Assembly (NCBI GenBank): GCA_037382465.1
Contig: JARRPX010000039.1
Location: 1 to 44,142 of the forward strand
Source of the DNA: Anaerolineales bacterium
GTDB lineage: Bacteria; Chloroflexota; Anaerolineae; Anaerolineales; E44-bin32
Reading direction: 5' to 3'
Length of the DNA: 44,142 nucleotides
The notes under the pieces are model-generated. The model saw only the letters and a list, made by a program, of their open reading frames with translations, had not been told where the DNA came from and made no database searches. The position numbers and the translations under genes were made by a program. The stretch's first letter is position 1; each line of letters opens with the position of its first letter. This document shows, one piece after another, positions 10,824 through 18,602 of this stretch.

Positions 10824-11669
10824 GTGACATTAAAGGATCAATTGATAACATTCATCGGACCCGGGGCGATGGCTTCCGCTATGGCGTCTCGCTTGATCGA
10901 AGGCGGCACCCAAACGCCGGACAAGGTGCTAATGAGTGGACCGATCGTGGAACAATTGGAAAAGCTGGAGGAGCGGTTGGGCGTCTCCACGACGACGAAC
11001 AATCTCGAAGCGGTAAAAAATGCCGGCGTCGTCGTGCTCTCCGTGAAACCCCAAAGCATCCAGGAAGTCATGGATGAACTACACGGTGCCATCCCCAAAG
11101 ATGCGCTGGTGCTCTCGATCGTCGCAGGCGCTCGTTTAGATACTTTAGTGAAAGGCCTGAATCACAAAGCGATCGTGCGTTCGATGCCGAACACGCCGGC
11201 ACAGGTAGGTGAGGGCATCACGGTCTGGACGGCCACGGAAGATGTGACCGAAGAGCAGAAGGAACGCGCACGATTAATTCTCAAATCTTTCGGTGAAGAA
11301 GTATACGCCGACCACGAGGACTATCTCGACATGGCGACTGCGCTCTCCGGGACTGGTCCGGCATATGTCTTCTTACTGATGGAAGCAATGGTGGATGCAG
11401 GAGTCCATCTCGGATTTCCGCGTCGTATTTCGGAGCAATTGGTCGTGCAGACTTTCAAGGGCTCGGTGGCTTTCTACGAACACTCTCCTGTTCATCTGGC
11501 GCGGTTGAGAAACCAGGTGACATCGCCGGGTGGAACGAGCGCGGCAGCACTTTACTATCTCGAGAAAGCAGGCGTCAGGACCGCACTCTCGAGAGCGATC
11601 TGGGCAGCGTATGAACGTTCCGTCCAATTGGGGAAGGGCAAGAAACACGTCCAACCTGAAGACGATTGA
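10824..11669 (+). CDS. proC: Pyrroline-5-carboxylate reductase
   Basis: 281 residues with GTG start at 10824 and AGGAGGAG upstream. The N-terminal Rossmann motif reads FIGPGAMASAMASRL; the conserved substrate/dimer region is MPNTPAQVGEG, SGTGPAYVF and TSPGGTSAAAL. It reduces 1-pyrroline-5-carboxylate to L-proline with NAD(P)H, the last step of proline synthesis. The first glycine motif is GPGAMA where GxGNMG or GxGKMG is usual. The gene is separated from ruvA by 83 bp. Confidence 0.94.
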   Translation: MTLKDQLITFIGPGAMASAMASRLIEGGTQTPDKVLMSGPIVEQLEKLEERLGVSTTTNNLEAVKNAGVVVLSVKPQSIQEVMDELHGAIPKDALVLSIVAGARLDTLVKGLNHKAIVRSMPNTPAQVGEGITVWTATEDVTEEQKERARLILKSFGEEVYADHEDYLDMATALSGTGPAYVFLLMEAMVDAGVHLGFPRRISEQLVVQTFKGSVAFYEHSPVHLARLRNQVTSPGGTSAAALYYLEKAGVRTALSRAIWAAYERSVQLGKGKKHVQPEDD

Positions 11670-11849
11670 ACGCCGGTGATCCGAGTCGTGCGCGTTCGCT
11701 GTCGCTCGCACGCATTGGGACCACGTACATGAGATTCGGCGAGCGTGCACGCTGAATGGGAATAATGGCCAAAGAATTGCGCTTCGTTCTTTCGACCGGT
11801 GATATGGGCAATCCTAATTCATTGCCGAACCCGCAGAAAAGGGGTCGGC

Positions 11850-11878
11850 TGGACAAACGATGGGGGTTCGGGTATGAT
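11850..11878 (+). promoter_or_regulatory. Probable promoter of the atpAGDC transcript
   Basis: TGGACA (11850-11855), exactly 17 bp, then TATGAT (11873-11878); each box differs from the sigma-70 consensus at one base. A transcript would start near 11885 and carry a leader of about 165 nt before atpA. It lies in the 381-bp gap after proC. Confidence 0.5.
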
Positions 11879-11900
11879 TTCCGCGTACGTTCATTTGCCC

Positions 11901-11993
11901 TTGAGTATCGAACGCCCAAGTTCTTTTGGGATCATACGCTGGGGGACTCAAACGGCTTGGCCTTCGGGCAACACCCAGAAGTCGCCAGCCGTT
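11901..11993 (+). ncRNA. Structured 5' leader of atpA (candidate attenuator-like hairpins)
   Basis: The gap 11670-12050 holds no convincing gene. Two stem-loops lie in tandem. In the first, TTGAGT (11901-11906) pairs with ACTCAA (11946-11951) and encloses CCCAA/TTGGG (11915-11919 with 11926-11930). In the second, 11951-11993, there are 17 Watson-Crick pairs: AACGGCT with AGCCGTT, GGC with GCC, CTTC with GAAG, GGG with CCC, loop CAACA, and small bulges at 11958, 11977 and 11982-11983. A short T stretch (to 11995) follows, so it resembles a weak intrinsic terminator or an RNA control element 58 nt before atpA. I recognise no known riboswitch class. Confidence 0.45.
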
Positions 11994-12050
11994 TTACTTG
12001 CGCCAAGTTCTGGTCCAGCTTGAACAGCCCATACCCCTCATGGAGGAAGT

Positions 12051-13712
12051 ATGTCGGACATGATTGACGATCTTTCCTCGGAACTACGGCAGAAAATCGA
12101 AAAATTCGACACGCAGATCTCGTTGAAAGATATCGGCACGGTGCTCGAGGCCGGCGATGGAATCGCTCGCGTGTCAGGCCTGTCGGATGTTCGATCCCAG
12201 GAGCTGGTGCGTTTTGAAAACGGCGTAATGGGAATCGCCTTCAACCTGGAAGACGATTCGATCGGCGTGATCATCATGGGCGATTACACAGGCATCGAAG
12301 AAGGCACGACGGTCTACAGCACGAACCGCATTGCTTCAGTCCCAGTCGGAGAAGGCCTCATCGGCCGCGTGGTCAACTCGCTCGGCAATCCGATCGACGG
12401 CAAAGGATCCGTGTCGTACGAAGAATTCTTGCCCGTCGAACGTATCGCGCCGGGCGTCGTCAAACGTAAGGACGTCGACTCACCGGTGATGACGGGAATC
12501 AAGGCGATCGATTCGATGGTGCCGATCGGCCGTGGCCAGCGCGAATTGATCATCGGGGACCGGCAGACCGGAAAAACTGCGATCGCCATCGATACCATTA
12601 TCAACCAGAAGGGCAAGAATTTAATCTGCATCTACGTTGCGATCGGTCAGAAACGAGCCGGGGTCGCCCGTACGGTTGCGACTCTCGAAAGCTACGGCGC
12701 CATGAACCACACCATCATCGTCGTTGCGGCTGCGGATGAACCGGCTGCCCTGCAATACATCGCCCCCTACGCCGGCTGCGCGATCGGTGAGTACTTTGCC
12801 GAGAATGGCAAAGATGCGCTGGTGATTTACGATGACTTGACCAAACATGCCTGGGCGTATCGCCAGGTGTCACTCCTGCTGCGCCGCCCGCCAGGGCGGG
12901 AAGCCTATCCGGGTGACGTATTTTATTTGCACAGCCGCTTGTTGGAGCGCGCGGTCCGTCTTGCGGATCAATACGTTATCGCGGACGAGGGATTTGAAGG
13001 CGATGCAAGCGAATCCGACGCCGTAAACGATGTGCTTTACGGTGGCCCGCTGGCATACGAGGATGCCCAGAAGGCTCTCGAAGAAATGGGGGATTCTGAA
13101 AATTACAAGGTCGTCCACGTGAGCGGCTCCGGCGGCTCGTTGACGGCGCTGCCGATCATCGAGACTCAATTGGGTGACATGTCGGCGTACATCCCGACAA
13201 ACGTTATTTCCATCACGGATGGTCAAATTTATCTCGAAGCCGATCTGTTCAACGCCGGCATTCGACCGGCGATCAATGCCGGGCTCTCCGTCTCCCGGGT
13301 TGGCGGTGATGCGCAGACCAAGGCCATGAAGCAAGTCGCGGGGATGCTGCGGCTGGACATGGCTGCCTATCGTGAGGTCGCGGCTTTCGCTCAATTCGGA
13401 TCCGATTTGGATAAGACCACGTTGTCCCAACTGAACCGTGGCCAACGCCTGCAGGAAATTCTAAAGCAGCCGCAGTACCAGCCTTTGGCGTTGGCGCAGC
13501 AGATCGTCTTGCTCTTTGCAGGCACGAGTGGACTGGCAGATGATGTTTCTCTCGATCGCATGGGGGCGTGGCAAACTGCTCTGCTGCAGACCCTGGAGGC
13601 TTCGCATATTGACATCTTGCAAGAGATCAATGACCAGAAGGTGTTAACCGAGGACATCGAAAAGAAGCTCCGGCAGGCGATTGAGACTTTCAATCAAACC
13701 TGGGAGCCCTAA
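12051..13712 (+). CDS. atpA: F1-ATPase alpha subunit, with a ~40-residue insertion
   Basis: 553 residues; GGAGGAAGT precedes ATG. Walker A GDRQTGKT (169-176) and the C-terminal region after [13 protein letters not shown] are standard. The alpha subunit carries non-catalytic nucleotide sites and alternates with beta in the F1 head. The protein is about 40 residues longer than the roughly 510 usual. The extra length sits between LHSRLLERA (295-301) and GGSLTALP (361-368), where an acidic segment of about 60 residues replaces the usual 20. The gene heads atpA-G-D-C. The delta and F0 genes that normally precede it are absent and proC sits there instead. Confidence 0.97.
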
Positions 13713-13738
13713 CTAATAAGAAACAAGCGTGGGTGACG

Positions 13739-16079
<2,341 letters not shown>

Positions 16080-16115: not shown

Positions 16116-16565
16116 ATGTCGATCCGCTGCGAAATTGTCACCCAGGACAAATCATTATTTGAGGGTGATGTCGATATCGTGATCGTTCCCGGTTCGGAAG
16201 GGGAGATGGGCATTCTCCCCGGTCACGCACCGCTTCTGGCCACGTTGGGATACGGCATCCTGCGTGTTCGCACCGGGGACGAAGAACACGCTTTCACGAT
16301 CGCCGGAGGCGTGATCGAAGCCCGGCCCAATGTCGTCACGGTGCTGGCGGATATCGGCGAGAACGTCGAGGAAATCGATGTCCAACGTGCCGAAGCTGCA
16401 AAGACCAGAGCGGAGGAGCTGCTCAAGCGCGGACCTCCGCCGGATACGGATGAATATCTTTCGATTCAAGCCGCATTACGACGTTCAAAGATCCGCCTGG
16501 ATGCCGTGCGGCGTTATCGTCCAACCAAAGCGACGCGGCGAGAACCTACATATAAAGAAGAATAA
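16116..16565 (+). CDS. atpC: F1-ATPase epsilon subunit
   Basis: 149 residues. The N-terminal beta-sandwich (IRCEIVTQDKSLFEGDVD, then GEMGILPGHAPLLA) contacts gamma and the c-ring. The C-terminal helical hairpin (from about residue 88) can inhibit ATP hydrolysis in the family. It ends with a basic tail. It lies 36 bp after atpD and 5 bp before mreB, so mreB is probably on the same transcript. Confidence 0.95.
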   Translation: MSIRCEIVTQDKSLFEGDVDIVIVPGSEGEMGILPGHAPLLATLGYGILRVRTGDEEHAFTIAGGVIEARPNVVTVLADIGENVEEIDVQRAEAAKTRAEELLKRGPPPDTDEYLSIQAALRRSKIRLDAVRRYRPTKATRREPTYKEE

Positions 16566-16570
16566 AACTC

Positions 16571-17543
16571 ATGCCTATATTTGGTAAAGATCTCGGAATC
16601 GATTTGGGTACTGTCAACACGCTCATCTGTGAGGGTGGTGAGATCGTGCTTCACGAGCCAACGATCGTCGCCATCGACATCGACGAGCTAAAAATCGTAG
16701 ATGTCGGTCAATCGGCACGTGAAATGGAAGGCAAGGTGCCTGAATTAATCGAGGTCAGTCGCCCGATGCGCGACGGGGTCATCGCGGATTTCGAAGTCAC
16801 ACATCGCATGCTGGGTCATTTCGTGGAAAAGGTATGCGGCCCGGCGCGCTTGTTCAAGCCGCGCTCGATGGTCACTGTACCGCTCGGTGCAACGAGCGTG
16901 GAGAGTCGCGCCGTGCATGAGGCGGAGCTTCAGGCTGGGAACCGTGAGGTTTTTTTGATTCAGGAAACTCTGGCTGCGGCGATCGGCGTAGGTATGCCGA
17001 TCGGGGGGCGTCACGCAAGCAGCGGTGATCGCTATGAGCAGCATCGTGGCGCAGGATGCCACTCGCATCGGTGGGATCAAGCAGGACGAAGCCATTGCGT
17101 TTTACGTGCGCAAGAAGTACGGCTTGATCATCGGTCCCAGAACCGCGGAGCAGGCGAAAATACGCATCGGCGCTGCCATCCCACAGGATCAGGATCAGAC
17201 GCTGGAATTGCAGGGTCAGGACCAGGTGACCGGGTTGCCGCGTCCCGTAACGATATCTACGCGGGAAGTGACCGAGGCGATTCAAGAAGTGTTGATGCTG
17301 CAAATCAGCGCCATTCGTAACGTCCTCGAGCAAACGCCGCCCGAACTCGCTTCCGACGTCATTGATCGTGGAATGGTAATTTGCGGTGGCGGCGCGCTGC
17401 TTCGAGGTATGGACAAGTGGCTGACCAGGGAGACGGGCGTGCCGGTCTATCTGGCTGAGGAACCGGTTGCCTGCATCGCCAAGGGTGCTGCCAGAGCGAT
17501 GGGCATGCTGGACCGCCTGCACCGCACCCTGCCGCAGCCGTAA
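16571..17543 (+). pseudogene. mreB: mreB, broken by a frameshift and an internal deletion
   Basis: MreB is the actin-like ATPase that organises lateral cell-wall synthesis in rods. Frame 1 (16571-17002) encodes the first 144 residues, with phosphate-1 motif DLGIDLGTVNTL, ending GMPI. The remainder continues one base over, from about 17004 (GGVTQAAVIAM, then DEAIAFYVRKKYGLIIG) to the TAA at 17541-17543 and includes CGGGALLRGMD. Compared with MreB/Mbl, about 12 residues between GMPI and GGVT are missing (the usual EPTGSMVVDIG stretch), consistent with a ~35-bp deletion at a run of six G (17003-17008). That region is the phosphate-2 loop, so even a frameshifted product should not bind ATP. It is either a real pseudogene or an assembly error. 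Confidence 0.85.
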
Positions 17544-18571: not shown

Positions 18572-18602
18572 ATCATAAGACAAGTTGTGTTGCAAATCAC
18601 AA
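18572..18602 (-). promoter_or_regulatory. rex promoter with overlapping Rex operator (TTGTG-N8-CACAA)
   Basis: 18585-18602 reads TTGTGTTGCAAATCACAA on the plus strand, with perfect half-sites TTGTG and CACAA spaced by 8 bp, as in the known Rex operator consensus. On the minus strand TTGTGA (18602-18597) could serve as -35 and TATGAT (18577-18572) as -10, with a long 19-bp spacer. Rex bound here would cover the -35 box. The site is also about 48 bp upstream of a TATAAT facing obgE. Confidence 0.75.

Follow-up and report, generated by a model that had tools for sequence, protein, structure and literature searches.

Leader attenuators generally place a stable stem-loop and a run rich in T between a promoter and its gene. 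Regulation at the promoter itself has been described for an ATP synthase operon: in Streptomyces avermitilis, Rex binds the atp promoter across its −35 region (PMC5355995). In our survey of the literature, which covered titles and the openings of abstracts, nothing concerned the leader or the promoter described below.

The DNA analysed here, termed the window, is a stretch of 44,142 nucleotides from an Anaerolineales (Chloroflexota) bacterium; it carries the F1-ATPase operon atpAGDC, whose 5′ end is the subject here. Along the window, ruvC, ruvA and proC are followed by a 381-nt gap, by atpA, atpG, atpD and atpC, and by an mreB-like frame, with rex on the opposite strand (Table 1). The closest relatives of atpA were found in metagenome-assembled genomes of Anaerolineales and other Chloroflexota. 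The F0 gene atpB was located on a different contig (G000:C77:9842-10609, the window being G000:C39), and the F0 and F1 genes therefore probably lie in separate clusters. The atpA product has 553 residues with an apparent insertion of ~50 residues near positions 308–359 (12972–13127), and alignments of more distant atpA copies were interrupted near the same residues. The mreB gene is seemingly broken by a frame change (16571–17543): PF06723 covers just the first part of the 16571–17320 frame, and the 17025–17543 frame continues mreB. This change may be real or an assembly error. A small protein from the frame at 11756–12067 was considered and rejected, as it had no Pfam match and its frame crosses the promoter and enters atpA.

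Table 1. Features at and around the atpA leader, in window coordinates.
Feature	Position	Strand	Basis
proC, upstream neighbour	10824..11669	+	gene identification
−35 hexamer TGGACA	11850..11855	+	sequence and promoter scan; kept in relatives
17-nt spacer, end block GTTCGGG (order consensus TTTCAGG)	11856..11872	+	sequence and order alignment
−10 hexamer TATGAT	11873..11878	+	sequence, promoter scan and order alignment
Inferred transcript start	11885..11886	+	~7 nt past the −10 box, from hexamer position
First stem-loop, weak	about 11905..11937	+	predicted fold
Second stem-loop, 18 Watson-Crick pairs	11950..11994	+	predicted fold; arms common to three sister-genus genomes
Shine-Dalgarno-like GGAGG	12042..12046	+	by-eye reading
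atpA, F1 subunit alpha	12051..13712	+	gene identification
atpG, F1 subunit gamma	13733..14650	+	gene identification
atpD, presumably F1 subunit beta	14682..16079	+	open frame and translation
atpC, presumably F1 subunit epsilon	16116..16565	+	open frame and translation

The preliminary description, which was made from the sequence of this region, had proposed a TGGACA-N17-TATGAT promoter. This promoter is present at 11850–11878 and proved to be conserved upstream of atpA across the order. It was the sole promoter-like site between 11600 and 12200 (one found, 0.3 expected), and its hexamers match the sigma70-type sequence at 10 of 12 positions, with a spacer of 17 nt that falls within the 16–18 nt allowed. 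Across Anaerolineales, the promoter recurred as the string CTRGACAA-N9-TTTCAGGTATNATT. Scoring up to 1450 nt upstream of atpA with a threshold of 16 of 22, we found it at 77 of the 80 named Anaerolineales loci and at 13 of 17 further loci of the window's family, the window included, as compared with 2/400 and 0/85 shuffled control regions. The loci under the threshold were L051, L063, L064, L027 and the three loci of genus g6 (L016, L019, L021), where a TGGACA box stands ~44 to 52 nt before atpA and the −10 box is poor. Among the scored loci, the distance from the −35 box to the atpA start ranged from 63 to 1435 nt, and leader length is thus not fixed.

Searches with patterns of different stringency addressed how closely the promoter is tied to this operon. 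The strict pattern occurred at 25 places in 23 of 61 genomes of the order, and 23 of these places adjoined atpA or the M42 gene preceding it (the exceptions were L152 and L170). The window differs from the order consensus at three positions, spacer-end block and −10 box combined, in an alignment whose hexamer columns the search expression partly predetermined; because of these departures, its promoter is not among the strict-pattern matches. A looser pattern matched nine places in the window's own genome, and among the eight loci made from them the window's alone adjoins atpA. A degenerate pattern with a 17-nt spacer, run against 249 genomes of the class, matched 35 places in 33 genomes, including the window and all 12 sampled genomes of family f11 (probably Anaerolineaceae), in the latter beside atpA. 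Genome G038 had two places, one beside atpA by coordinates and one not, and G051 had none. In the 234 genomes outside the order, the degenerate pattern matched 20 places, spread over 19 genomes. Sixteen of these were checked: L229 was beside atpA, L230 was behind proC at a contig end, and 14 were neither, so part of the string is a general promoter preference of the class. Within the order, the matches show the promoter to be nearly confined to the F1-ATPase operon.

Transcription from this promoter would give a leader of ~165 nt, in which ~56 nt separate the end of the second stem-loop from the atpA start codon. A start of the transcript beyond the stem, named earlier as an observation that would speak against a structured leader, is unlikely given the order-wide conservation of the promoter. 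Two tandem stem-loops had been described, the second with 17 pairs at 11951–11993 and a short T stretch after it. Both were found in the predicted fold. The first is weak and unexceptional (z −1.41 for 11886–11945). The second, on recounting, has 18 pairs at 11950–11994 and a predicted energy of −23.0 kcal/mol, with one bulged U and small internal loops. It is followed by TTTTACTT, the initial Ts of which belong to the stem. A consensus scan did not list this hairpin; the stem and TTTTACTT are both there.

The claim that the leader is much more structured than chance would allow held weakly. Two comparisons with shuffled leaders gave folding z-scores of −1.54 (p 0.067) and −1.33 (p 0.10), and the best hairpin had p 0.023, or p 0.066 with a longer span limit. 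The 201-nt region as a whole gave z −1.37, with 15 of 200 shuffles folding equally well, and 11903–12050 by itself gave z −0.82. When the window was cut into tiles of 166 nt on both strands, 71 of 1060 tiles contained a hairpin at least as stable. The excised hairpin reached z −4.7 to −5.1, but it had been chosen for its stability. At the gathering score, Rfam yielded one tRNA elsewhere in the window and nothing at the leader; below threshold, the best match (E 0.17, a snoRNA family) lay outside the hairpin. A repeated element was also considered and rejected, with no second copy found by BLAST.

To place the hairpin among relatives, we compared the leaders of the window's family. The sister genus g2 was represented by five genomes, and atpA was found in three of them (L033, L034, L036), all with a hairpin at the same place and with arms similar to those of the window. 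The 5′ arm ACGGCTTGGCCTTCG was matched at 14 of 15 positions in L033 (equalled by 0/200 shuffles), with p 0.015 in L034 and p 0.31 in L036; six leaders from other genera had no comparable match (p 0.13 to 1.0). Across the window and the three g2 genomes, 11 of 16 positions of the 5′ arm and 8 of 14 of the 3′ arm were identical, as compared with 10 of 64 and 7 of 40 positions in the flanking leader. On this alignment, the better preservation of the arms between the two genera hints at selection. A hairpin model built from the four genomes and run against 27 family genomes placed it at atpA in those four alone; five weaker places were on other contigs (E 0.017 to 0.70). BLAST of the gap against the same number of family genomes matched the gap itself alone.

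Leaders of other genera differ from that of the window, and the relatives' leaders ranged from ~30 to over 280 nt. In a run of 18 family leaders with a match at the 17-nt spacer (genera g6 and g10 and locus L027 left out), the best hairpin had p < 0.05 in six (L034, L036, L012, L015, L113, L115), and the window's had p 0.066. Apart from the g2 pair, these six were unlike one another in sequence. Forty leaders from outside the family, many of them close relatives and none ≥350 nt or <90 nt, had a mean folding z of −2.4. Taken together, the six of 18 and this mean suggest that structure is common among the leaders of this operon, which, like the better kept arms, counts against a purely passive hairpin.

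Our preferred reading, to which we assign a probability of roughly 0.55, is that an F1-ATPase promoter conserved throughout the order is followed here by a lineage-specific leader hairpin that is passive or mildly stabilising. Transcription would begin at the sigma70-type promoter, whose activity and start point we infer from its hexamers, and the ~165-nt leader would carry the predicted 18-bp hairpin. The hairpin is shared by the window's lineage and the sister genus g2, and the rest of the leader evolves fast. Most likely it serves as a passive or mildly stabilising 5′-UTR structure, and F1 synthesis would be controlled at the promoter. The earlier proposal of attenuation or of RNA or protein control fared poorly: there were no double changes, no such hairpin was found at atpA in any further genus of the family, and the leaders of other genera differ. 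A conserved attenuator or riboswitch at this leader is not supported. What had been suspected to be an attenuator is better viewed as a leader that follows a promoter of unusually high conservation, and this promoter provides a defined element through which the control of ATP synthase in a poorly studied group can be tested.

It is doubtful that the hairpin is instead a conserved cis-acting RNA element, bound by a protein or a small RNA and sampled too narrowly for covariation to appear. The conservation of arms over flanks between g1 and g2 would fit such an element, as would the inner-stem differences within g2, which are G-U compatible at three positions. Against it, two of the three g2 sequences no longer pair at A17-U38 of the model, and the covariation check proposed in the preliminary description returned no compensatory change: 0 of 18 pairs had changed on both sides among the four genomes with the hairpin, a small set in which the pair alignment also puts one window bulge elsewhere, so that some pairs were lost from the count. 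In addition, when the window's genome was searched at E ≤ 10 with a model built from g2 alone, the window hairpin was missed, although that search had no positive control.

Another leader hairpin, strongly conserved and partly covarying, was found behind the same promoter and before atpA in family f11, with the form CCCGGATAA-n-TTATCCGGG. The motif CCCGGAT...ATCCGGG, with a 3′ flank resembling TTGTACGTAA, was present in 35 loci (L046, L050, L057, L070, L072–L074, L076, L077, L079, L080, L084–L094, L096–L105, L107, L111 and L112) with 33 distinct sequences, many of them from f11. The hairpin has 10 pairs and is closed by A-U, G-U or G-C. In the 33 sequences, 99.1% of cells pair and six of the 10 pairs are invariant. 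Two pairs showed double changes, in 11 cells; the number of double-change cells and the covariation score exceeded 500/500 shuffles, uncorrected for relatedness, and the number of double-change pairs was not above chance (reached by 222/500 shuffles). RNAalifold also predicted an outer helix in f11 leaders. Of 301 Anaerolineales genomes, 59 matched the f11 model at E ≤ 0.1. Thirty-six of the 37 genomes with E below 1e-5 belonged to f11 and one to f14, and in all 12 that were compared by coordinates the match lay just behind the atpA promoter. Rfam left the f11 hairpin unmatched in the six loci scanned. The f11 and window hairpins share the promoter, the operon and a similar place in the leader. 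They differ in sequence, and the f11 model had no match in the window, in the window's genome or in the other family loci given.

The f11 hairpin may have arisen from the M42 aminopeptidase gene that in other families lies between the promoter and atpA. When the f11 model was run on 66 other loci, the four best matches (L018, L040, L052, L042; E 0.05 to 3.1) each lay 39 nt into an M42 aminopeptidase gene or a truncated copy of it, as judged from the frame in L052. Using a protein profile of the M42 start on 63 leaders, we obtained 37.6, 14.6 and 8.5 bits in L030, L077 and L046 (null maximum 6.9). Among 45 leaders from outside the window's family, the corresponding DNA profile matched nine, and four of these exceeded the null maximum (6.4); leaders <60 nt were omitted from both profiles. 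Traces of the M42 gene start, from a 93-aa remnant down to a few codons, were seen in leaders L030, L046, L077 and L111 and in L040. The 93-aa remnant (L040:2634-2915) could represent an intermediate. By these matches, we interpret the f11 hairpin as what is left of the opening codons of an M42 aminopeptidase gene that has been lost, and it may then be an instance in which coding sequence was turned into a non-coding RNA structure. In 22 intact M42 genes, the f11-type fold had a mean z of −0.58, within the range of control windows (−0.58 to +0.21); Fisher's p for the same 22 genes was 0.002, and prior selection was not taken as shown. That Anaerolineales repeatedly gain leader hairpins behind one F1-ATPase promoter, with that of f11 derived from codons and fixed as non-coding and that of the window independent or diverged with a similar job, is an unlikely scenario.

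Attenuation proper is less probable still. In this reading, the 11950–11994 hairpin and TTTTACTT form an intrinsic terminator that is relieved by alternative pairing. The stem is GC-rich, its base is A/T-rich and its tail is rich in T, and the leader of genus g11 (L113) likewise has a hairpin followed by TTTTTATTTG. However, the tail is not kept beside the stem in g2, a count of terminator-like sites over the initial 20 kb of the window gave 19 compared to 20.3 in shuffled sequence (sd 5.0), and many relatives' leaders are too short or unrelated. On both the scan without terminator excess and the tail not kept in g2, attenuation lacks support.

An M42 origin is not supported for the window's family. 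Decay of an M42 gene start, as proposed for f11, would fit the operon position of the window hairpin: in L035, from another genus of the family, an intact M42 aminopeptidase gene separates the promoter from atpA. On visual inspection, the window frame near 11950 also looks similar to the first codons of that gene. The profiles make this origin very improbable: the protein profile gave p 0.47 for the window and p 0.11 or more for all 18 family leaders, and the DNA profile matched 0/18. Least credible of all is that the inverted repeat acts as operator DNA bound by a repressor and not as an RNA structure. Conservation of the arms without covariation between the window and the sister genus would fit an operator. 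Against it, the inverted repeat begins ~65 nt past the inferred start, its GC-rich arms are far apart around a long middle, and the four-genome model found one place in the window's genome.

Compared to leader attenuators, the window also has a stem-loop and a T-rich stretch between promoter and gene, but it lacks an established alternative fold, a conserved tail and, in its first 20 kb, an excess of terminator-like sites. As to the Rex-controlled atp promoter of S. avermitilis, a TTGTGAA-like half-site (at least 6 of 7) stands 11 nt before the −35 box in 24 of the 90 scored promoters (including L012, L025, L035, L044 and L114–L116) and also in the g6 loci L016, L019 and L021, whose promoters score below threshold. 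This half-site is placed as in an operator overlapping the −35 box (PMC5355995), and a rex gene lies within the window. In contrast to the Streptomyces promoter, the right half here is TGGACAA and not TTCACAA, the left half-site of the window matches at 2 of 7 positions, and no TTGTGAA-N4-TTCACAA-like palindrome was found near 11850 at up to three mismatches. Rex control of the atp promoter is a lead for the relatives and not for the window. At the start of rex (18585–18602) there is a Rex-operator-like palindrome with three mismatches; such palindromes in the window were not above chance (three matches, reached by 20 of 100 shuffles). Like a sigma70-type promoter, the window site has two hexamers and a 17-nt spacer, and it differs from that type in belonging to a set with an order-wide conserved spacer end, TTTCAGG, and with flanks that are also kept across the order: C before and A after the −35 box, and T after the −10 box.
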